From IMG/VR virus record IMGVR_UViG_3300020034_000025, positions 1 through 51,566 of that record: a stretch of 51,566 nucleotides of DNA; one strand, given 5' to 3'. The translations under genes and the position numbers were made by a program. Shown piece by piece: positions 3,065 through 50,707 of this stretch. The notes under the pieces are model-generated. The model had not been told where the DNA came from. It was given only the letters and a program-made list of their open reading frames with translations, and made no database searches. The stretch's first letter is position 1. Each line of letters begins with the position of its first letter. The DNA is from a virus.

Positions 3065-3098
3065 CCTGGTGGGGTCGACGACCGCCGACCCCACCAGG
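3065..3098 (-). terminator. Hairpin, 13-bp perfect stem
   Basis: The arms at 3065-3077 and 3086-3098 (CCTGGTGGGGTCG and its exact complement) enclose an 8-nt loop. It lies in the 118-bp gap between the gene ending at 3141 and the gene starting at 3022. There is no U-tract, so it could attenuate transcription or protect RNA ends instead of terminating. Confidence 0.6.
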
Positions 3099-3723: not shown

Positions 3724-3948
3724 ATGTTGTGCAATTACCCTCGTATCTGGCGGCTTCGGCGACGCGCCAGAAGGAACAGCCCGCGGCGTCTCGCAGCGAT
3801 CGCGGGGCGCCCGTGGCACTACCGGTGGCGGTACGACGCAGGTGTGCGTACGTGCGATGTGGCGGTGAGGTGGGGTGACCGCTGGTTGCACCTGTGGGGT
3901 TGGGTGACCCGCAGCGACGCGGCGTACCAGCGGCGTTCCTCGAGCTAG
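3724..3948 (+). CDS. Small, very basic plus-strand protein (tentative)
   Basis: 74 aa on the strand opposite to the operon, filling the only gap in it (3672-3944). It is Arg- and Trp-rich (RRRARRNSPRR; WHYRWRYDAG). Its TAG stop shares the bases CTAG with the stop of the convergent exonuclease gene. There is no clear ribosome-binding site. The alternative is that this gap only holds a promoter and leader for the gene starting at 3671. Confidence 0.4.
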   Translation: MLCNYPRIWRLRRRARRNSPRRLAAIAGRPWHYRWRYDAGVRTCDVAVRWGDRWLHLWGWVTRSDAAYQRRSSS

Positions 3949-5729
3949 GCGGCGTTGACTCCGTGGCCGACCGCTACACAGGCGGCTAGGAGGACGTCAC
4001 CGCAGAGGTCGTCGTAGGTGACGGGGACCTTCACTCCGAGGCGCTTCGCTACGCGTTTGCCGCGGCGGAGCGCTTCTAGCTTCGTTGCCTTTGTGACGGT
4101 GCCTGTTGTTGGCATCGCCGCTAGTAGCGCCTTCTCCATGTCTTTGACGCCGCGGATGTCCACTCCGCTTCCGGACCAGTGGGCTACGATCACTCCGGCG
4201 GGCGCTGACACTTGTGTCACTACCGCTTGGAGCGCTAGGTAATGTTCTCTGCTCATGACCGCAGCCGCGCAGCGTGCCGTTTCCGCGCACTTATGGGCGA
4301 GAACGTCGTCGTCGAGGAGACTCAACAGCGCCCGGCCTTTGGTGGCCCAGCCTTCCGCTTCCGCTTTCGGGTTTGGGCGTGGCTTTGGCCGGTCGTCTTG
4401 TTCTGGTTGGGGTGGCTGGTCGTCTTCGTCTGGTTTCTCCGGGGGGAACGGAAGGCCGTATAGCCCTTCCATGTCCCAGCACCATTGTTCGATGGCCGGT
4501 AGGTGTTCGGGCTCCACGTCACCGCTTTTGAACGTGGGAACACCTACCGGCCATCCGATGGGTAGGGGGCGGCCTGCGGCGGTTTCAACGATTAGAGCTA
4601 CTCGGGAGCGAGCATGCCCAACAAAGTCGAAGTCTGTACCTGGCTCCGCCATTTCGTTTACAGCATTTGGAACGTCCCCGCGTGTGTCGGGGTCATCGTC
4701 GTTATCGCCGCTGACATCCTCACCAACCAGCAGAACGGGTTTATCAACGTGCTGGTCTGTTTGGGGTTCATCTACGGAGCGTGCTACCTGCTCGCTTTCG
4801 TGGTCTATTACGGCGCGTGTGGGGCGCGGCGCTGGTAGACCGACAGCTTTCCTGGCGACGCTCTCACCGTCGCGGCGGATACGCCACGTCTCAAAGAGCC
4901 CTAGGAACGCGTGCCGTGCGTCTGCGATTTCGACCGGGTAGAGCCTGTATCCGTCGTCGGCGGTGATACTGACGATCGCGCCGTGTTGGACCTCTGGCGG
5001 GTCGACTCGCTCGAGGTCGCCTTGTTCGTTGGTGATGACGACGTATTCGCCTGACGCATACCCGCCAAGCTGGCAGACCTCTTCGGGGTAGGCGCCGTGC
5101 GCTGACCCGCGGCTTTTCCAATCGACGATGGTCAACCCGTAGGGCTCGTCGCAGGTCGGGCAGATGGCGTCTGGGAACTCGACTAGCGCGTCCGCGGTAC
5201 CGGCGAAACCGAGCGTCCGGTTGATGACTACGAATTCGGTCATGCGCCACCGGGGCGACCACTCTTCAACGAACAGTTCACATGCGGGGATGAACGGTCG
5301 CACGTCGTCGTCGTGTAGCTCAGGTGCGAGGCGGATACCTGCGGCTAACCCTTCGACGACGCTGTGTACACCTGTCCCGCGGTCACCTGCTCGAGCTAGG
5401 TCCCGTTCAGGCGCTGTAGCAACCATCGTGAACGCCTGCTCTGGGTGCATCGCGGCTAGCTGTGCGATGTTCTCGCTGACGTAGGCGGCTGCGCGGTAGG
5501 CGTCGAGGGGGACGACTAGACCTGACGGTGTCTTTTTCCGCCACGGTTTCGACCACGCCTTTTTGATGGTCGTAACCGCGGGTACCGCATCGGTCATCTC
5601 TGGCCACTTGTGGTCTGCGGGTAGCGGGTCGCGGTACCACCTGGCGCCGGAGCGCTTCGTACGGAATATGTCTGGATCGATGGGACCTCTAAGCAGTCCC
5701 GGCATCACCAGCCTTAGCGGTACCTTCAC
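3945..5729 (-). CDS. PD-(D/E)XK exonuclease, Cas4/RecB-like
   Basis: Up to 594 aa. Starts at GTG 5729 and ATG 5705 are both possible; the latter gives MPGLLRGPIDPD and overlaps the upstream gene less. The nuclease core is in the first half: GFAGTADALVEF (the Asp of motif II), then TIVDWKSRG (D-x-K of motif III), then EVCQLGGYASG (QxxxY motif). These are the hallmarks of the RecB/Cas4 family, which degrades or resects DNA ends. The second half (after about residue 330) is acidic and Pro-rich followed by a separate Ala-rich helical domain that I cannot assign. In related phages this nuclease works in recombination or genome replication; no annealing protein is recognisable beside it. Confidence 0.85.
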   Translation of the reverse strand: MKVPLRLVMPGLLRGPIDPDIFRTKRSGARWYRDPLPADHKWPEMTDAVPAVTTIKKAWSKPWRKKTPSGLVVPLDAYRAAAYVSENIAQLAAMHPEQAFTMVATAPERDLARAGDRGTGVHSVVEGLAAGIRLAPELHDDDVRPFIPACELFVEEWSPRWRMTEFVVINRTLGFAGTADALVEFPDAICPTCDEPYGLTIVDWKSRGSAHGAYPEEVCQLGGYASGEYVVITNEQGDLERVDPPEVQHGAIVSITADDGYRLYPVEIADARHAFLGLFETWRIRRDGESVARKAVGLPAPRPTRAVIDHESEQVARSVDEPQTDQHVDKPVLLVGEDVSGDNDDDPDTRGDVPNAVNEMAEPGTDFDFVGHARSRVALIVETAAGRPLPIGWPVGVPTFKSGDVEPEHLPAIEQWCWDMEGLYGLPFPPEKPDEDDQPPQPEQDDRPKPRPNPKAEAEGWATKGRALLSLLDDDVLAHKCAETARCAAAVMSREHYLALQAVVTQVSAPAGVIVAHWSGSGVDIRGVKDMEKALLAAMPTTGTVTKATKLEALRRGKRVAKRLGVKVPVTYDDLCGDVLLAACVAVGHGVNAA

Positions 5730-7458: not shown

Positions 7459-7989
7459 GTGGAAGCGGACGAAATCCGGCGTCGAATAGGCAACGCTCTA
7501 CGAGTAGTGCTGACCGACGCGGACATGACACACGCGCAGCTAGGCGCCGCTATCGGGAGCAGCCGCAGCGCAGTCGCATCGTGGGTCAACGGAACGAACA
7601 TGGTTTCGCTAGAAGCGGTCCCACGCATAGACGCAGTGCTCGGATGCCGCCTACTGGAACAAGCGGGGATCATCACCGCCAGGTCGTTGCTCGACGCGAT
7701 TGACGCAGACGGGTCGCTCGACGAGCTTGCTCGAGGTGACCTCAGAGCGACCCTAGAGCGCTGTATCGCCGATACAGCCCGCAGGCGCATAGCGGAGGTC
7801 GCAAGCGACGGTGACGCCACTGAGACGCACGTAGCGCTGCCTGACGGTCCGTCGACCGAAGAGGCAGCGCTACGTCTACTCGTCGAGCTGTTTGGGCCCG
7901 GCAGGCTCGCAGAGCTAGGCGCTCAGATAACCAGCCTCGCCGCTGTGGTCCCGGTGGCTACGGACGGGTCTGCCACCGGGGTGGGCTAA
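7459..7989 (+). CDS. Probable immunity repressor (HTH protein)
   Basis: 176 aa when started at GTG 7459 (preferred because of the TACCCT box just before it; an upstream in-frame start at 7414 adds 15 Pro-rich residues). An Xre-like HTH lies at the N-terminus: VLTDADMTHAQLGAAIGSSRSAVASWVNG. The rest is helical and acidic with no peptidase (Ser/Lys) dyad like that of LexA/cI, so induction by self-cleavage is not evident. It diverges from the early operon, as expected of a prophage repressor. A general HTH regulator remains possible. Confidence 0.7.
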   Translation: MEADEIRRRIGNALRVVLTDADMTHAQLGAAIGSSRSAVASWVNGTNMVSLEAVPRIDAVLGCRLLEQAGIITARSLLDAIDADGSLDELARGDLRATLERCIADTARRRIAEVASDGDATETHVALPDGPSTEEAALRLLVELFGPGRLAELGAQITSLAAVVPVATDGSATGVG

Positions 7990-9477: not shown

Positions 9478-9549
9478 GGAGCGGTACCGGTGTCCCGGTG
9501 TGCCCCTCTCCCTGTTTGGCCGCAGGGGGTACACCACCGGTACCGCTCC
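9478..9549. repeat. Long nested hairpin, 15-bp outer stem
   Basis: The outer arms 9478-9492 and 9535-9549 (GGAGCGGTACCGGTG and its exact complement) enclose 42 nt. These can pair again (GTGTGCCCCT with AGGGGGTACAC, imperfectly). It begins five bases past the stop of the minus-strand gene 9554-10057 and lies upstream of the TPR gene. There is no U-tract. The rest of the gap 9330-9477 holds a shorter hairpin near 9433-9463 and nothing coding that I can support. Confidence 0.7.
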
Positions 9550-10057: not shown

Positions 10058-10236
10058 CGCTGGGTTGCCTTGACGTGGACGCGCCACGCGGCGCGCTCTA
10101 GTACCTGAGCGGTCCGCTCAGCGACCCGTCTCTCAGCGGCGCTGAGGTGACCGGCCCTGTCGACGCATGCTCGCAGGACTGCGATCTGTGCCGCGTTGAA
10201 TGTGAGTGTCACCGCTGGTCGTCGTTGACCGCTCAC
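10054..10236 (-). CDS. 60-aa helical protein of unknown function
   Basis: The start is placed at GTG 10236, which is preceded by a strong ribosome-binding site (GAGGTGG). From there the protein reads MSGQRRPAVTLTFNAAQ and continues as a basic, Ala/Arg-rich helical stretch. The longer upstream frame crosses a hairpin and is rejected. Its size and basic helices would suit a small DNA-binding protein, but no HTH is identifiable. Confidence 0.6.
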   Translation of the reverse strand: MSGQRRPAVTLTFNAAQIAVLRACVDRAGHLSAAERRVAERTAQVLERAAWRVHVKATQR

Positions 10237-10329: not shown

Positions 10330-10384
10330 GCGCCCCCACCACCCTTGCACCGGAGTTGTGGACTTCGGGAGGTGGTGGGGGCGC
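10330..10384. repeat. Inverted repeat with 14-bp perfect arms between divergent units
   Basis: Arms at 10330-10343 and 10371-10384 (GCGCCCCCACCACC and its complement) are separated by 27 nt. It sits in the 293-bp gap between a minus-strand gene (start 10236) and a plus-strand gene (start 10530). It could be an operator region or a structured RNA. An AT-richer patch at 10300-10315 beside it may hold the minus-strand promoter. Confidence 0.65.
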
Positions 10385-10529: not shown

Positions 10530-11111
10530 ATGAGTACGGGACAAAGGTTCTCCTTAGAGGACAAAGCCCGGGGCCTGTGGCTCTGGGACAGCGGTTGGCC
10601 GGTCGACGAGGCGGCCGCTGACATCGGAACGGCGCAGCAGAGCTTGTACGCCTGGCGGAAGGACGTCGCGGACGGGAAGCTCAAGCTCCCGCTCTTCTCG
10701 CCGCCTACTGAGCTGCTGGTCGAACGTGCCAGGCGCAGGGGGGACCAGCTCCCCGCCACGGGCACCGAACCCGCGGCAGACGACGACAACGGCGGAGCGT
10801 TGGAACTGTCGACTGGTAGCGGTGTGCCGGAGCGCCCCGAGGTGGTTCCGGCGTCCGAACTGGTCCGAACGAAATCGGATCTGCGTGCCGCTCGAGATGA
10901 GCACGCGAGAACGAAAGCTCAGCTCGACGCTGCGAACGAGGCGATCACGGAGCTGCGGGTCGAAGCGGTCGAAGCGAAGGCGCGTTCCGACGCGGCGCTC
11001 GATGTCGCCGCGACGGAGCTGGCGGACGAGCGGGCGAAAACCAGGGCGGCTGTCGACCGGGCGGACACGTTCGCCCGGTCCATCGGGTATCTGTCGGAGG
11101 TCAAGCGATGA
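10530..11111 (+). CDS. HTH-plus-coiled-coil protein with a transposase-like N-terminus
   Basis: 193 aa from ATG 10530, chosen for the leaderless promoter and because the upstream frame is noise. Residues 5-50 (FSLEDKARGLWLWDSGW, then DEAAADIGTAQQSLYAW) resemble the HTH of IS3-type OrfA/transposase-family proteins. A Pro/Gly/Asp linker follows. About residues 110-185 form a long coiled coil (RAARDEHARTKAQLDAANEA...). The IS3 OrfA plan is an HTH followed by a leucine zipper, but no OrfB, terminal repeats or IS context is present. A domesticated DNA-binding protein is more likely than an active element. Confidence 0.7.
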   Translation: MSTGQRFSLEDKARGLWLWDSGWPVDEAAADIGTAQQSLYAWRKDVADGKLKLPLFSPPTELLVERARRRGDQLPATGTEPAADDDNGGALELSTGSGVPERPEVVPASELVRTKSDLRAARDEHARTKAQLDAANEAITELRVEAVEAKARSDAALDVAATELADERAKTRAAVDRADTFARSIGYLSEVKR

Positions 11112-11440
11112 GTTTCACGAACGCTCACCTGTGCGCCAGGAACGCAGGCGGTCTAGGTCACAGGTGGGACATCATCCCCGTCGAGTGGGAACCGAATACC
11201 CAGTGGTTCTACGACGATATCGACAACTACCGCTGCGAGCGCTGCGGGAAGATCAAGGCGGTCCTGTTCGACAGCAACTACGACCGCTACACCCTCTACA
11301 AGGGGAAGACAGGGGTCGTGTACGGAGCGGACGACGCACGCCCCACACCAGAGGACATCCGGCGGATGTTGCATGCGAAGGTGGCGCGGATCGAAGACCA
11401 GCGAGCGAGACGAGGCAACCTCGCAGCGGTCGCTTCGTAG
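11108..11440 (+). CDS. Protein of unknown function with zinc-binding Cys pairs
   Basis: 110 aa, with its ATG overlapping the stop of the coiled-coil gene (ATGA), so the two are co-translated. It carries an N-terminal CARN...GHRW and a central YRCERCGKIKAVLFD, a plausible C-x-n-C/H plus CxxC zinc site, followed by a helical basic C-terminus (RMLHAKVARIEDQRARRG). No family recognised. It may act with its coupled HTH partner. Confidence 0.7.
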   Translation: MSFTNAHLCARNAGGLGHRWDIIPVEWEPNTQWFYDDIDNYRCERCGKIKAVLFDSNYDRYTLYKGKTGVVYGADDARPTPEDIRRMLHAKVARIEDQRARRGNLAAVAS

Positions 11441-11484
11441 GTCCACCACCACACTGGCGCGGGTGTGGCAGGATGGTCACTGTT

Positions 11485-11562
11485 CGCGGTGAGGACGTCG
11501 CGATTCCTGTCGCACCCGCCTACGCCGGTGGAGGTGTGTAACCGGAGACGTTCCTCACCGCG
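11485..11562. repeat. Inverted repeat 1 of the integrase-side cluster
   Basis: CGCGGTGAGGACGTC starting at 11485 is mirrored by a matching arm ending at 11562, with one extra T in the right arm. The spacer is about 47 nt. A 22-codon frame (ATG 11474 to TAA 11541) overlaps the left arm and spacer. Confidence 0.6.
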
Positions 11563-11564
11563 AG

Positions 11565-11632
11565 CCCCGCGTGTAGCTGGGTAGGCAGCTGGCCACTTAC
11601 CCAGGGAACAGCCATGCCAGCTACACGCGGGG
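11565..11632. repeat. Inverted repeat 2, 16-bp perfect arms (attP candidate)
   Basis: CCCCGCGTGTAGCTGG at 11565-11580 and its exact complement at 11617-11632. The 36-nt loop contains further pairing (CTGGGTA with TTACCCAG, partly overlapping the arms). Total span is 68 bp. It lies on the 3' side of the serine integrase, a usual place for attP, but core bases cannot be named from this sequence alone. Confidence 0.65.
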
Positions 11633-11665
11633 GTGGCGGCCCGCACCTCGGAGCCGGCCGCCACC
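11632..11665. repeat. Inverted repeat 3, 10-bp perfect arms
   Basis: GGTGGCGGCC at 11632-11641 pairs with GGCCGCCACC at 11656-11665, followed on the plus strand by AAAAT. It directly adjoins repeat 2. Confidence 0.6.
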
Positions 11666-11674
11666 AAAATCGCA

Positions 11675-11709
11675 AGCGACCCACCAGCGCATTGGGCTGG
11701 TGGGTCGCT
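11675..11709. terminator. Inverted repeat 4, 14-bp perfect stem, terminator-like
   Basis: AGCGACCCACCAGC at 11675-11688 and its exact complement at 11696-11709, with a 7-nt loop. It has the shape of an intrinsic terminator stem. On the minus strand it is followed by GCGATTTTGG, so it could end leftward transcripts. It could also cap rightward transcription from 11440. Confidence 0.6.
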
Positions 11710-11727
11710 GCGTGCCTCGGGCGAACA

Positions 11728-11794
11728 TGCCAGACAGGCCAGAACCGTTGAAGAAAGACCGTCCCTCACGGTGCAGCATCTGACCTGTCTGGCA
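11728..11794. repeat. Inverted repeat 5, 11-bp perfect arms (attP candidate)
   Basis: TGCCAGACAGG at 11728-11738 and CCTGTCTGGCA at 11784-11794 enclose 45 nt with an inner ACCGT-CCCTC-ACGGT hairpin. At 67 bp the span is almost the same as repeat 2. Serine-integrase attP sites are imperfect palindromes of roughly 50 bp, so this and repeat 2 are the best attP candidates here. Confidence 0.6.
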
Positions 11795-11802
11795 AACCAA
11801 CA

Positions 11803-11847
11803 GGCGCACCGGGACCCGCCGACGAGGCTAGGAGGTCCCGGGGCGCC
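11803..11847. repeat. Inverted repeat 6, 14-bp arms with one mismatch
   Basis: GGCGCACCGGGACC at 11803-11816 against GGTCCCGGGGCGCC at 11834-11847. A competing pairing, GGCTAGG (11826) with CCTAGCC (11846), overlaps it, so alternative structures are possible. Just beyond lies a 12-bp palindrome, ACGCCTAGGCGT, at about 11900-11911, then three near-copies of CCTGTAAC at about 11938-11960. Confidence 0.55.
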
Positions 11848-11992
11848 TAGCCACCAGTGTGGCACTCGCGGAGCGTCTCCGTACACTCCCCAGCACTACA
11901 CGCCTAGGCGTTTGGGTCCTCTCACCCTCCCGTAGCTCCTGTAACCACCTGTAACACCTGTGGACAGCGCCCCAGCTATGGGAGGTGCCTTC

Positions 11993-12244
11993 GTGGCTAC
12001 CCGACACGCGCAAACGCCGCAGGACCCCCAACGGGCGATCCTGCGGCGCTACTGCGACCTGCTAAGCCGCCGCCACCCTGGCACCCGCTGGCACCTTGAC
12101 GCGAATAGGGGTGAGGGTGGTGACCCTGGTGTCATCTCCGGGGAGGTCCCTGGGGCAACCGATGTCACCTCGGTTCCAGACCCCGACCCGCTCGACGACG
12201 GGACCGCGGTGGGGGGTGACAGCGACCACCTCGAAACCGTCTGA
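11993..12244 (+). CDS. Possible small antisense gene at the integrase 3' end (weak)
   Basis: An 83-codon frame starts with GTG at 11993 after GGGAGGTG at good spacing. Its first 23 residues (VATRHAQTPQDPQRAILR...) look protein-like and fall outside the integrase. The remainder is antisense to the integrase C-terminus and is acidic, low-quality sequence. It also contains the terminator-like hairpin 12015-12048. I list it because of the ribosome-binding site only. Confidence 0.25.
   Translation: MATRHAQTPQDPQRAILRRYCDLLSRRHPGTRWHLDANRGEGGDPGVISGEVPGATDVTSVPDPDPLDDGTAVGGDSDHLETV
12015..12048 (-). terminator. Hairpin after the integrase gene
   Basis: CGCCGCAGGA at 12015-12024 pairs with TCCTGCGGCG at 12039-12048 across a 14-nt loop, 14 bases beyond the integrase stop. 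Likely terminator or RNA-end stem of the integrase operon. It is also the last member of the inverted-repeat cluster. Confidence 0.6.
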
Positions 12245-13678
12245 CAGAAACTTTCGCTTGTCTTCGATGTCGAGGGTGGGCCAGTCTTCGGCGAGGTGGA
12301 CGGGGAGCGCCACACCGAACGCCGCGGACCTGGCCGCGGCGACAGCCTCGCGGGTTTCAACGACCCGTGAGACCTTCGCACGTTGCGCCTCGTCGGCCCA
12401 TGTGTCTCCGAGGGTGGCGCGTAGCTCGTCGGTCGCAGGGGACGTCAGGAAGGCGTGTAGGGCCGTTTCCGCCTGCTCCTGCGCGGCGATCGCGGCGTCA
12501 AGCTCCGTGGTCGACACCGAGGGGCGGAGGGTGTGGTCGAGGAACCGGTCCCGGAAGAGGTTGGACACCAGTTCTTCGACCTGCTCAGCGCGGACCAGTG
12601 CGGGGGCGGTGCACTTCCCGTACCCGGTGGTGCGGCACCGGTAGTACCGGTAGGTGACCTCACCCTTAGGGGTGTGCTTCCGGTCGGTGCGGCCGGCCAT
12701 GCGGACCCCGCACGTGGCGCAGCGGATGAGCCCGGAGAGCATGAACTGTCCGGCTTCGCGGCGGATGGTCGTGGTGTTGCTGTTGTTCACCCGCTCCCAC
12801 AGGCCATAGTCGGGAAGGTCGTCAGCGGTGACGAGCAGCGGTTCGTGCGCGTCGGTGTTGACGGTTTCACCGGAAGCGATTTCACCGAGGTACACCCGTG
12901 AGCAGACGATGTTGCGGACGCTCGAGATGCCCCAACCGGCGGCCTTCCCACGGGGCTTGACCCCTTCGGAGTTCAGGTGGTCCGCGATCTTGCGCCAGCT
13001 CGCGCCCCTGTCGCGCATAGCGAAGACGTTGACGACGTACGGAGCTTCGAGGACGTGGGGGATCAGCCTGCGGGTGCCACCGTTGGGTTTGCCGTCGGGG
13101 CCGTAGGTGACGTCTTTGACGTAGCCGAAGGGGGCGTGGTTGGCGATGCCGCTGGCGATGTGGCGCGCGGTGACAGCGGCCCACCCTTCGGTGAGGGTGT
13201 CGCGCTGCCATTGGGCGAGCATGAGCCAGAACGTGCGAATCAGCCTGTCCGTGCCGGTCGCCTTCTCCGGTCCGACGATCATCCCCTCGCGGGCGGAGCG
13301 GAGCTGTCCGCCGCAGTCCTCGAGCTGGTTCATGGCGCCTAGGCCGCCTTGGACGGTGCGGGCGAACCGGTCGACCTTCGCGACGTAGATACCGGCGGAT
13401 TTACCGGCCTTGGCGCGGGCGATGGCGGTTTGCAGGTCTTCGCGGTCGACGGTCCCACCGGAGACGCTGTCGGTTTCGTAGAAGATCCTGTCGATGGTTT
13501 CGCCGTCGGCGGCGGCGCGGCGGTTGATGGCGTCGAGCTGTTCGTCGGGGGACATGAACGCGTCACCCTCGCGGCCGTTGCGGCGTGAGACGCGAATGAC
13601 GGCGTCGAACGGGAGCTTGGTGACGACGACGGAATCGAGGGGGAGGCGGTTGACGTCGAGGGTGTTGGTGGCGGCCAT
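12062..13678 (-). CDS. int: Large serine recombinase (phage integrase)
   Basis: 538 aa from ATG 13678, which follows a strong ribosome-binding site (GAGGGGAGC). The catalytic domain has the nucleophile in VIRVSRRNG (Ser31) and the conserved Arg region KVDRFARTV. The Recombinase domain follows (PFGYVKDVTYG, KIADHLNSEGV, SSVRNIVCSRVYLGEI), then a zinc ribbon (LIRCATCGVRM...YYRCRTT...KCTAP), a coiled-coil stretch and a C-terminal tail. This is the full plan of integrases such as those of Bxb1 and phiC31, which recombine attP with a chromosomal attB without high-energy cofactors. A basic frame further upstream is rejected. Excision would need a directionality factor; the small genes just upstream are candidates by position only. 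Confidence 0.95.
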   Translation of the reverse strand: MAATNTLDVNRLPLDSVVVTKLPFDAVIRVSRRNGREGDAFMSPDEQLDAINRRAAADGETIDRIFYETDSVSGGTVDREDLQTAIARAKAGKSAGIYVAKVDRFARTVQGGLGAMNQLEDCGGQLRSAREGMIVGPEKATGTDRLIRTFWLMLAQWQRDTLTEGWAAVTARHIASGIANHAPFGYVKDVTYGPDGKPNGGTRRLIPHVLEAPYVVNVFAMRDRGASWRKIADHLNSEGVKPRGKAAGWGISSVRNIVCSRVYLGEIASGETVNTDAHEPLLVTADDLPDYGLWERVNNSNTTTIRREAGQFMLSGLIRCATCGVRMAGRTDRKHTPKGEVTYRYYRCRTTGYGKCTAPALVRAEQVEELVSNLFRDRFLDHTLRPSVSTTELDAAIAAQEQAETALHAFLTSPATDELRATLGDTWADEAQRAKVSRVVETREAVAAARSAAFGVALPVHLAEDWPTLDIEDKRKFLSDGFEVVAVTPHRGPVVERVGVWNRGDIGCPRDLPGDDTRVTTLTPIRVKVPAGARVAAA

Positions 13679-14747: not shown

Positions 14748-14756
14748 TCGACCAAC

Positions 14757-14794
14757 GGAGAAGGCCCCGGGACCGCACCCCCGGGGCCTTCTCC
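14757..14794. terminator. Strong bidirectional terminator hairpin
   Basis: Fifteen-bp perfect arms (GGAGAAGGCCCCGGG at 14757-14771 and its complement at 14780-14794) with an 8-nt loop. It lies exactly between a plus-strand gene ending at 14747 and a minus-strand gene ending at 14799, so it can serve both. Confidence 0.8.
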
Positions 14795-14798
14795 GCGT

Positions 14799-21434: not shown

Positions 21435-21467
21435 AAGGCCCCGGAGACGCTGCGTCTCCGGGGCCTT
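21435..21467. terminator. Strong bidirectional terminator
   Basis: AAGGCCCCGGAGACGC at 21435-21450 and its exact complement at 21452-21467, a 16-bp stem (the tip would open to form a loop). It separates the plus-strand lipoprotein unit from the minus-strand gene ending at 21481. Confidence 0.8.
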
Positions 21468-21894: not shown

Positions 21895-21991
21895 GCGTGA
21901 ATTCGTCTGTGTGTGCAGTAACCGGCATAAATCCTCGTTTCGCTGTGGGGGAGCAACCGAGGATGGTAGGTGACCGGACCGAAAACCAAAA

Positions 21992-22024
21992 GGACCCCGT
22001 CCCTGCGGCGAAGGGACGGGGTCC
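21992..22024 (-). terminator. Intrinsic terminator, minus strand
   Basis: GGACCCCGTCCCT at 21992-22004 and its complement at 22012-22024 form a 13-bp perfect stem with a 7-nt loop, followed on the minus strand by TTTTGGTTTT. Good candidate for the end of late leftward transcription past the lysis genes. Confidence 0.75.
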
Positions 22025-22170
22025 AAATGTGCGGCGGCGGTCTGTCCGATCGGTGCCGCACCCCGCGAGGCGGTTGTGTGCGAGATGCGACACCGACCAG
22101 GTGAAGGCACCGTACGCCGCACGCTCGGTAGCCGTCTAGAGACACAAGCGTTTTCTTCCTTGTCGGGTCG

Positions 22171-22199
22171 TTGACACACCAACCCGCGTCCGGTAACCA
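22171..22199 (+). promoter_or_regulatory. Candidate plus-strand promoter (TTGACA-17-TAACCA)
   Basis: TTGACA at 22171-22176 is a perfect -35 box. Seventeen bases later TAACCA is a fair -10. Transcription would start near 22206 at the first base of a 15-bp hairpin; no protein gene follows on this strand. Confidence 0.45.
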
Positions 22200-22202
22200 T
22201 CC

Positions 22203-22312
22203 CCTCGGTGTCTACGCCTCCGGAACGGCGTCTCTAGGAGGCGTAGACACCCCGCAACGCGAAACAGGCACCGGCCCCGCGGGGGTGCGGGACCGGTGCC
22301 TGTTGAGTTTCA
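22203..22312 (+). ncRNA. Candidate structured small RNA
   Basis: The gap between the gene at 21481-21894 and the holin-like gene contains, after a good plus-strand promoter, a 15-bp perfect hairpin (22207-22221 with 22237-22251, loop 15 nt). Next come 11 bases and a second hairpin (AACAGGCACCGG at 22263 with its complement ending at 22304, extended by CCCCGC/GCGGG), ending in GAGTTT. Promoter, stem and terminator-like stem in order suggest a transcript of about 105 nt. It would be antisense to the 3' leader of the lysis transcript. The second hairpin could simply be the minus-strand terminator of the holin-like gene. Confidence 0.4.
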
Positions 22313-22330
22313 CTACCGAGGTAACGGACG

Positions 22331-27908: not shown

Positions 27909-30449
27909 TTATCCCCAGACGGTCGTTTCGCCCCACGTTGACGTTCCCCAAATCCAAACCTGGGAATCATCTGCGTTAGACAGGCGATAGTCGACAGTCC
28001 ATGAGCCGTCTTCGTTGAGGCTCATGTCTGTCCCCTCGATGGTGAGGGAATTAACGATTGGTACACCTACGAGCTGCGGATGTCGTGTAACGGTGGTCCG
28101 GTCGGAGATGCGAAGGTCAAGGATCGTTGCCCAGAGGTCGGGTTTCCCTGCGAGGTCAAACGGGAGGCGCCTCAACCGGACCTGCGGGTCCTTATAGCGT
28201 GAGATCAGCCACCCGCCAGCGCTTTGCGCTACCGACGGTGTCGGCGCTTCTGTTGTCAGCGAGCGGCGCTGTGCCCCGTAGCGGTCCCGGCTGGTGTCGT
28301 CGACAACGATTTCTGTTCCGCCCTGCCAGGTGACCTCAGCAACGTTGACGATGGTGTCAATGCCGCCCGGTTCTGGTTCGATGTCTTCGCGGAAATCACA
28401 GGGATCGAACGATGCCTGTGAGGTCGTTGACCTAGTAGCGGTGAGACGGTCGTACCGTCCCCGGAATGTGAGTACGCCACCGTTGCGGTGATCGACGTAG
28501 AACACACCTTGCTCAGATTCGACGACGCCTTGTAGGTAACTCGCAGCGGCCTGACTACCGTAAACCGCCGGGCCTACGGTGGTGTCACCCGCCGCTATGT
28601 CTCGCATGGCGACGGGAATACCGATGAGATCAAGTACCCGTTCGATACGCGCACCGGACGTTTCGCCACCGAACGCGGTAGAACCAGCCTCGTAGAGCGT
28701 GGCGATCTTGTCAGCGGTCAGGACATCCGAATGCACAGACACTTCATCGATAAGACCGTCAAGACCGAAGTCACCGGACTTAGCGTTGATCGAGTTAGCG
28801 ACAGTCCAAATCAGATGGCTCGACCACGCGCCAGGTACGGACCCAAAAACAAGGGTCTTCGTTTCGGCAGCTCCGTCGACGTAGAGCAGCACCTCAGCGG
28901 CAGTAAGCCCCGCGATAGTGCACGCGACCATATGGATTTCATCGTCGTCGATACGAGTGTTGCCGCGTGCCTTGTAGTTACCACCGAGGTTGAAGAACTC
29001 GACGACTAGCTCCCCGTTAGGGGACCCAAACGCAGACTCTTCGATATCGAACATCAAACCGGACCGCAACGTCGAATCCCGCTGAGCGATGATGATTCCC
29101 TTTAACGCCGCGAGGTCCCTAGGGGTTTTGATCCACGCAATAAGCGTGCAGGGCGGCCCAACGGGGAGCCCTTCACCCTTGAACCTGCCACGGTTGTCCC
29201 CGACGTGCGGGGCGAGGAACGAACCGCCACCACCGAACACCAGCGACTCTTGACCCAATGTCCCGTTGTCGATGAACCCGTGACGTCCGTTCCCTGACGA
29301 GTCGAACATCTGCGCGCCTGCGCGTTCGTCGAGACGCCAGAACGCTCCGGGGTTGTTGAGCATCATTTCCGCCTCGTAGGCGGACCCCGGAAGTTCGTCA
29401 CTTTCGAGGACACCTAACATGTCCTCGAGGTCGACTGTGCATGTCGACGCGTAGGGCTTCTGGTACGCCTGTTTCCAACCCGATTTGACGAACCCGTAGA
29501 ACTGGTCCGACCACGACAGTTCGTCTAACGAGAGTTGAATCCGAAACGGTGCGCGTGGGAGAAGGTCCCCGTAATGCTGACCGGCTGTGTATTCGGGGTC
29601 GTAGAGGCGGTCGTTGTTCCGGAAGACAATTGTCGCCGTGCCTGACCGGAACTGGTCGAGTTCGTTGTCCCGTCCGGTAGTCCATGAAAGCGACTTGACG
29701 TGTCCGCAGGGGATGTCGACCCAATCGAACCCACCGATCGAGGCGGTGCCGTTGACGGTCCATGGGCGCCCCGCAGAATCGACGAACGCTGTCGCGCCTG
29801 GCGTCTGGTTGGTGAAGTCGGGGTTAGCGACGATGGTCCCTGCGGGTGTACCTGAGCGCATCTGTGCGCGTAGGAGCCTCCCCGGATATGGGGTGAAACC
29901 CGAACCGATGACGTCGCCGGCACTCAACAGCGCGGTAGACGCGAACACCGAGGTTGTCCCTGCGGCTGTCTGCGGGGTGCCAAGCACTGGCAGGGTCGCG
30001 ACGAGTTCTGCGAGTGTCGGGGCACTGTAGAACGTCACTGTGTTGTTACCGGCGTTGTCGATGTCGAGCCAGAAACCAAACGCGAGTGTCCCAGAGACCG
30101 GCCGCGGGAGAGGTTCGCTCGAGGTGCGGTTTAGTTCGTTTAGGCCGTCGGGTGACCAGCGGACCCGCAGTTTCTGATCTGACGACAGATACATCACAAA
30201 CGAACGCTGGTTACCTGTGGGCTGTTGTTTCCCTATCACCTCATAGCTGACGCCTACGGGTGGGGTCGGTATCGTCCCGTCTGTTTCGACCGCGACGAAC
30301 AGGTCACCCGTAACGTCTAGCGACGCGTGGTCGGGTGTGCTGGCACTGGCGCTGGCTACCCCTGGGAGCGTCAGCCACGTCACCCCTGCGACGTCGTAGG
30401 GGCCTGCCCCTGGGAGCCATTGGACGCGATATGCGGGGATAGTCACAGG
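27909..30449 (-). CDS. Large minor tail protein with LamG-like domain
   Basis: 846 aa from GTG 30449 (MTIPAYRVQWLPGAGPYDV). The first 270 residues are a beta-rich tail module, probably anchoring to the tail tip. Residues about 270-370 include SLSWTTGRDNELDQF and a strand FRNNDRLYDPEY, resembling phage proteins that follow the tape measure. From about 385, MMLNNPGAFWRLDERAGAQMFDSSGNG starts a LamG/concanavalin-like domain (GFIDNG, CTLIAWIKTPRDL), a sugar-binding fold. The C-terminus (RYKDPQVRLRRLPFDLAGKP) resembles tail-hub proteins. As the first gene after the tape measure it combines positions usually held by Dit/Tal proteins. Confidence 0.8.
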   Translation of the reverse strand, partial: PVTIPAYRVQWLPGAGPYDVAGVTWLTLPGVASASASTPDHASLDVTGDLFVAVETDGTIPTPPVGVSYEVIGKQQPTGNQRSFVMYLSSDQKLRVRWSPDGLNELNRTSSEPLPRPVSGTLAFGFWLDIDNAGNNTVTFYSAPTLAELVATLPVLGTPQTAAGTTSVFASTALLSAGDVIGSGFTPYPGRLLRAQMRSGTPAGTIVANPDFTNQTPGATAFVDSAGRPWTVNGTASIGGFDWVDIPCGHVKSLSWTTGRDNELDQFRSGTATIVFRNNDRLYDPEYTAGQHYGDLLPRAPFRIQLSLDELSWSDQFYGFVKSGWKQAYQKPYASTCTVDLEDMLGVLESDELPGSAYEAEMMLNNPGAFWRLDERAGAQMFDSSGNGRHGFIDNGTLGQESLVFGGGGSFLAPHVGDNRGRFKGEGLPVGPPCTLIAWIKTPRDLAALKGIIIAQRDSTLRSGLMFDIEESAFGSPNGELVVEFFNLGGNYKARGNTRIDDDEIHMVACTIAGLTAAEVLLYVDGAAETKTLVFGSVPGAWSSHLIWTVANSINAKSGDFGLDGLIDEVSVHSDVLTADKIATLYEAGSTAFGGETSGARIERVLDLIGIPVAMRDIAAGDTTVGPAVYGSQAAASYLQGVVESEQGVFYVDHRNGGVLTFRGRYDRLTATRSTTSQASFDPCDFREDIEPEPGGIDTIVNVAEVTWQGGTEIVVDDTSRDRYGAQRRSLTTEAPTPSVAQSAGGWLISRYKDPQVRLRRLPFDLAGKPDLWATILDLRISDRTTVTRHPQLVGVPIVNSLTIEGTDMSLNEDGSWTVDYRLSNADDSQVWIWGTSTWGETTVWG

Positions 30450-34747: not shown

Positions 34748-34790
34748 TCGTTGGTGAAATGTGCGCTCTTTTAAGGGAGGTACGTGATGT

Positions 34791-35261
34791 TTATGAGCCA
34801 GGTGCGAGCGGCGTGCTGTCCACGCGGTAGCGCGGGGTAGCGATAAATACGGGTGGCTGTACGGTGTCGTCTCTGCGGACTCCGCCACCGGCCATGTCCG
34901 CCCATATACGGAAGATGAACCGGTTAGCGACGTTCAACGTCTGACCGATGAGTACCGCGGCGACTTGATCGGCGACCCATTCGCATTGTCCGCGTGTCGC
35001 TCCGACACAGGTCACTTGCCAGACGAGACTGGCGTCATCGTCTGGGCAGCCAAGCGGACCGTCAAACAGGCCACCTGGGAGCGGATAGACGATGCAGTAC
35101 GGACGGAACTCGGAGTCACCTGGGGTGCCTTGCCATCCCCATCCGAACCCGCCAGGTATCACGTTGAGGTCTGGTGCTCCTGCGTCAAACACTTTGAGCA
35201 TCACGTCGAGCGCATCGACGATGGCGTCTGTGTGGGTACGGAGCTGTGCGAGATCAGTCAT
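34791..35261 (-). CDS. Probable tail terminator protein
   Basis: 156 aa from ATG 35261 (MTDLAQLRTHTDAIVDALDV), overlapping the gp10-like stop. It includes PGGFGWGWQGTPGDSEFRPY, CIVYPLPGGLFDG, LVWQVTCVGATRGQCEWVADQV and a C-terminal RYRVDSTPLAPGS. Size, order and the D-x-x-x-x-W-Q-V-T-x-V-G element fit the proteins placed before the major tail gene in HK97-like modules (tail completion, lambda gpU-like). Specific function assigned from order. Confidence 0.75.
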   Translation of the reverse strand: MTDLAQLRTHTDAIVDALDVMLKVFDAGAPDLNVIPGGFGWGWQGTPGDSEFRPYCIVYPLPGGLFDGPLGCPDDDASLVWQVTCVGATRGQCEWVADQVAAVLIGQTLNVANRFIFRIWADMAGGGVRRDDTVQPPVFIATPRYRVDSTPLAPGS

Positions 35262-50640: not shown

Positions 50641-50707
50641 GGCGACCCCGGTTGCGATAGGCGACACCCGCGCTGGCAAACCCTCGGGAGAACCAGCGCG
50701 GGTGTCA

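Follow-up and report, generated by a model that had tools for sequence, protein, structure and literature searches.

Eight long inverted repeats with unrelated arms are packed into about 0.6 kb beside the serine integrase gene of a phage, and the question that this locus raises is what so many different hairpins do there. The window, i.e., the whole stretch of DNA that was analysed, covers an entire virus record of IMG/VR (51,566 bp). Its portal protein is nearest to those of Arthrobacter and Streptomyces phages (about 34%), and its terminase has many relatives in Streptomyces, Nonomuraea, Nocardia, and other actinobacteria; judged by these relatives, the phage is tailed and its host is probably an actinobacterium.

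Genes flanking the gap

The hairpins lie in the longest non-coding gap of the record (11441-12061, 621 bp), between a plus-strand gene and the minus-strand integrase, with a small plus-strand ORF reaching in from the right:

11108-11440, plus strand: upstream gene for a CxxC-containing protein of 110 aa (ORF list and coding score)
11993-12244, plus strand: small ORF of 83 aa with a GTG start, GGAGG at 11981-11985 and an RRHPGTRW motif (homologues beside integrases)
12062-13678, minus strand: large serine integrase with resolvase, recombinase and zinc-ribbon domains (PHROG 95, E 1.4e-59; Pfam)

The transcript of the upstream gene is predicted to enter the hairpin array. The start of the integrase is only 1 nt from the next gene, so that its 5' side is closed. 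The whole gap had been taken as non-coding in the earlier note. This holds for 11441-11992, where the coding score gave no signal in any frame and a reading of the array as coding sequence was thereby ruled out, and fails for 11993-12061, which is part of the small ORF. The 110-aa gene has no relatives in IMG/VR, and single-sequence protein searches with the integrase and the two plus-strand genes returned no relatives. Further upstream, a plus-strand gene at 10530-11111 encodes a 193-aa protein with a transposase-type HTH, matched at the cut-off (HTH_Tnp_1), and probably a coiled coil, for which no relatives were found in phages or IMG/VR; it is divergent from the gene at 10212, and the intervening gap holds a hairpin with 14-bp arms (10330-10384).

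An alignment search with the integrase found relatives in the phages L204 (46%) and L217 (37%), the first of which has a methyltransferase, an exonuclease and a regulator in common with the window phage as well. Homologues of the small ORF are present in L204 (7602-7799, plus strand), L217 (7297-7548, minus strand) and, more weakly, L213 (7312-7566, minus strand). A gene of 66-85 aa with a (C/A)xxLxRRHPGTRW-like motif thus stands beside related serine integrases in four phages and overlaps the integrase 3' end antisense in three, as it does in the window. The codons of RRHPGTRW differ between the window and L204 at third positions only. The protein has no Pfam or PHROG match, and its AlphaFold model is of low confidence (pLDDT 65); it is a candidate partner of the integrase and perhaps its directionality factor. 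The array itself, for which a search of related phages had been proposed, is missing beside the integrases of L204, L217 and L213. L204 carries one perfect hairpin (7580-7614) behind its integrase and no array; a hairpin behind the integrase therefore recurs, while the array does not.

Inventory of the hairpins

All seven inverted repeats described earlier are present, with coordinates correct to within 1 bp, and an eighth, I6, had been overlooked. From left to right they are:

11459-11519: hairpin I6, 15-nt arms (87% matching), both mismatches being G-U on the plus strand
11484-11563: hairpin I8, 12-nt perfect arms, 16 nt when extended through one bulge
11565-11632: hairpin I1, 16-nt perfect arms
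11632-11665: hairpin I4, 16-nt arms (88% matching), a 34-bp dyad with the non-palindromic 2-bp centre TC
11675-11709: hairpin I2, 14-nt perfect arms
11728-11794: hairpin I3, 16-nt arms (94% matching), the mismatch being G-U on the minus strand
11802-11848: hairpin I5, 15-nt arms (93% matching), 47 bp with a single-base centre
12015-12048: hairpin I7, in the first codons of the small ORF and 13 nt past the integrase stop (12062)

I6 and I8 begin 18 and 43 nt past the stop of the plus-strand gene (11440), and the middle hairpins lie 120-420 nt from the stop that each would serve. Three pairs of hairpins overlap or abut, and I8, I1 and I4 are packed nearly without linkers; I6 and I8 are interleaved and therefore mutually exclusive, and arm bases common to adjacent stems are found at 11558-11563 and 11632-11639. 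The smaller elements reported before were also recovered, namely the perfect 12-bp palindrome ACGCCTAGGCGT (11900-11911) and three direct repeats upstream of the small ORF (CCTGTAAC at 11938-11945, CCTGTAAC at 11948-11955 and CCTGTGGA at 11957-11964). The arms are indeed mutually unrelated, as no direct-repeat family exists within 11300-12200, which rules out a repeat array.

Hairpin density compared with chance and with other phages

Inverted repeats were scored with +2 for a match and -3 for a mismatch at spans of up to 90, counted from a score of at least 20 and called strong from at least 24. The 621-bp gap contains eight repeats scoring at least 20, while 1000 dinucleotide shuffles had 0.15 on average and never more than 2, and five scoring at least 24, compared with a maximum of 1 in 1000 dinucleotide shuffles. 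The proposal that these structures are selected and not random is well supported; the density is far above that of the shuffles. The whole window holds 43 such repeats, compared with 10-14 in simulated sequence.

The comparison set of 2.59 Mb was drawn from records of related phages, the surroundings of integrase genes and six annotated phages. Only here were five strong hairpins found within 450 bp; the few other clusters had at most four, at least one of them (L213) consisting of related repeats, and no comparable cluster of unlike hairpins was seen in the approximately 2.6 Mb compared. Two candidates, L157 1216-1662 and L213 9583-9754, were set aside as they contain related repeats. In L157, a phage record related by its terminase, the interval 1558-1680 carries AGTCCCTTTACCC / GGGTAAAGGGCCATGATG repeats in tandem direct and inverted order. 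In L213, inverted repeats of TCACTGA / TCAGTGA units lie within a replication-protein-like gene, an arrangement like that of an origin with iterons inside an initiator gene.

Hairpins as proposed tandem terminators

Among the explanations considered, transcription termination, an option missing from the earlier note, fits the position and build of the hairpins best. We give about an even chance to the array being a tandem terminator field, i.e., a transcription barrier between two opposing transcripts. GC-rich intrinsic-terminator hairpins in tandem, with few or imperfect U tails, would separate the rightward operon (10530-11440) from the leftward integrase. A polymerase coming off the integrase would encounter I7, I5, I3 and I2 in turn, and one coming off the rightward operon would meet I6/I8 and then I1. 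The purpose would be that neither transcript continues as antisense RNA into the territory of the other, of which the integrase 3' end and the small ORF are part; if attP lies within the gap, the array would also insulate prophage and host genes from each other. Both the termination activity and this purpose are inferred.

Several observations point in this direction. All eight hairpins fold alone, with z about -4 to -7.5 on the plus strand and -2.5 to -6 on the minus strand, and pairing is equal on both strands, as two-way barriers would show. The outermost hairpins of the array, I6 and I7, begin 18 and 13 nt past the stops of the two flanking genes. Elsewhere in the window, 6 of 14 strong isolated hairpins lie within 50 nt behind the end of a gene or tRNA, as compared to 7.8% expected (p = 0.0004), the gene ends being those of the codon-score gene calls made in this analysis. 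These six are 3065-3098, 9478-9549, 14756-14795, 21435-21467, 22263-22304 and 50663-50706, the last behind tRNA-Met. The isolated hairpins have mostly perfect, GC-rich stems of 13-18 bp, and those of the cluster are built alike. A second gap with tandem hairpins (21895-22330, 436 bp) contains three of them (21992-22024, 22207-22251 and 22263-22304) with scores of 26-31. The exact arms of I2 occur in three unrelated phage contigs as an isolated hairpin at a gene junction; this exact recurrence of its 11-bp stem core at gene junctions in unrelated large-phage contigs may be chance. Exact arms of I1 were not found in IMG/VR.

In the three contigs, two of which measure about 276 kb, this hairpin is a near-perfect CATAGAGACCCACCAGCC structure (L244 8104-8147, L245 4925-4969 and L246 6369-6413), whose stem core is that of I2. 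It lies at a gene junction a few bases from stop codons, the genes being convergent in L246, and is apparently a two-way terminator. In the window, a perfect hairpin with 18-bp arms (4491-4555) falls within the long exonuclease ORF (3945-5705), past the region with matches to exonuclease families, and this ORF is possibly a fused or composite gene.

Other findings speak against a terminator field. Two hairpins suffice for two converging transcripts, and eight are excessive; a consensus scan called only one canonical terminator, and a weak one; overlapping or abutting pairs are odd if the terminators are independent; and L204, which has the closest related integrase, lacks the array next to it. 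How many hairpins there are and how tightly they are packed is the part left unexplained.

U tails and known terminators

Within the 10 nt following each hairpin in the direction of the integrase transcript, I7 has 4 U, I5 has 5, I3 has 3 and I2 has 5. Across all eight hairpins, the integrase strand has 24 U in 80 nt (p = 0.008) and the plus strand 10 U in 80 nt (p = 0.78; 0-2 U per tail), in a test devised after the data had been seen. In Term-seq data, Streptomyces terminators show 3-4 U per 10 nt, and their hairpins are reported as the longest and most stable (PMC12207403). The array resembles them in its long, very stable hairpins, Streptomyces being a genus that may not be the host, and on the strand of the integrase I7, I5, I3 and I2 reach the U range; the remaining four hairpins and every plus-strand tail fall below it.

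Terminators without poly-U tails have been described in the actinophage phiC31 (Ingham 1995, as cited in PMC8355165 and PMC5335608). As reported by these citing papers, the terminators of the phiC31 early region (Ingham et al., 1995) are like the array in being GC-rich hairpins behind genes with little or no U tail, and differ in being single or paired, while here eight stand in 0.6 kb. The same hairpin scan applied to the phiC31 genome found strong intergenic hairpins, one about 107 nt behind gp11 (29590-29626) and another 8 nt behind gp21 (34772-34837), and no array. Clusters of hairpins have been proposed genome-wide as terminators (Gupta and Pal, 2021, PMC8355165); as in the array, several hairpins stand at most 15 nt apart behind stop codons and U tails are unnecessary, but those clusters mostly have stems of 2-10 bp and usually two hairpins, whereas the array has stems of 10-16 bp and eight. 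A U-less hairpin reduced expression in vivo in one orientation (PMC5335608). In vitro, however, the mycobacterial polymerase reportedly depends on a U tract, if only an imperfect one (Czyz 2014, cited in PMC5335608); the U-poor plus-strand tails count against the terminator field.

Alternative explanations

The earlier note had pointed to the gap as the expected place of attP. A wider form of this idea, in which the gap holds attP together with other recombination, excision-factor or replication-protein sites and the palindromes are double-strand binding sites or cruciforms, is in our view distinctly unlikely as an account of the array. The location suits it: no other non-coding gap of the record is as long (621 bp), the gap adjoins the serine integrase, and, with only 1 nt between the integrase start and the neighbouring gene, it is where attP would naturally be placed. 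Equal pairing of both strands also suits DNA sites. Serine-integrase attP sites, such as those of phiC31 and Bxb1, are a single imperfect dyad of about 40-50 bp, and the dyads of serine-integrase sites are centred on two base pairs. The array resembles them in its dyad symmetry and in its non-coding position beside an integrase, but consists of eight mostly perfect, unlike dyads with no mapped site, where one short site is expected. Half of the repeats (I6, I2, I3 and I5) are of odd length and so have no 2-bp centre, I8 (80 bp) and I1 (68 bp) are too long, and I4 and I7 (34 bp each) are of even length but short for attP. The 34-bp dyad I4 with its centre TC is the most site-like repeat. Half of the repeats thus do not fit a dyad with a 2-bp crossover; attP within the gap is plausible by position only, and would not account for eight unlike hairpins. 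No lysogen or att junction was found, the relatives in GTDB genomes by terminase alignment reaching at most 58%. The arms share no sequence and are therefore not sites of one protein, and hairpins of the same style stand behind unrelated genes. With no clear turn of strand skew at the array, a replication origin was rejected as well, as were the palindromes of Streptomyces telomeres, which the tight packing had brought to mind; the interval is not terminal, and the genes belong to a tailed phage.

A single structured non-coding RNA, about 420 nt long and made up of successive hairpins with its ends possibly closed by a CCAGTGTGG/CCACACTGG pair, is unlikely. The fold is very stable on either strand (z -9.2 on plus and -9.9 on minus against matched shuffles), its two ends are paired in the prediction, and the tight packing of I8, I1 and I4 would suit one molecule. 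GOLLD and ROOL are large ornate phage RNAs with several hundred nucleotides of packed hairpins in phage DNA, and the array is like them in this respect but differs in having neither an Rfam match nor a strand preference. The energy difference between minus and plus strand (-11.7) is within the spread of the shuffles (-7.5 +/- 6.1) and therefore does not suggest that either strand was selected as the transcribed one; an apparently much better fold of the minus strand (z -12.2 versus -8.4) vanished with matched shuffles. Mismatches in the stems favour neither strand (two are G-U on plus, one on minus, the rest on neither), and I6 and I8 exclude each other. A covariance-model search of Rfam gave no match at the gathering threshold and, at E <= 5, nothing but noise, and no homologue of the interval DNA was found in phages or plasmids, hence no covariation. 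The multi-hairpin RNA named among the earlier options has thus gained no positive support. A regulatory leader, in which alternative stems (I6/I8, I8/I1 and I1/I4) act as an attenuator-like switch on plus-strand read-through into the RRHPGTRW gene at 11993, would make use of the arm bases shared by neighbouring stems, which allow mutually exclusive folding, and of the position of the array between two plus-strand genes. We regard it as very unlikely: the small gene does without such a leader in L204, L217 and L213, U tails are absent from the plus strand, and about 145 bp including the direct repeats lie between the array and the small gene, space for a separate promoter. Equally little credence is given to an array without function as such, in which terminators or inverted repeats piled up in a tolerant gap by recombination or template switching. 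The nearest relatives do lack the array, and the mostly perfect stems look as though young; the stems are, however, unrelated to each other and therefore not copies, and their density is well above that of the rest of the phage and of the 2.6-Mb comparison set. There is also a slight chance that the array is a new phage element, a folded multi-hairpin RNA or DNA structure that would act with the integrase and the RRHPGTRW protein in integration or excision.

Implications

If the proposed tandem terminator field indeed terminates in both directions, it would act as a strong natural insulator in GC-rich actinobacteria and could be used to test whether a tandem arrangement helps U-poor hairpins to work. 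It would also help to explain why temperate phages keep opposing transcripts apart by barriers at the integrase.
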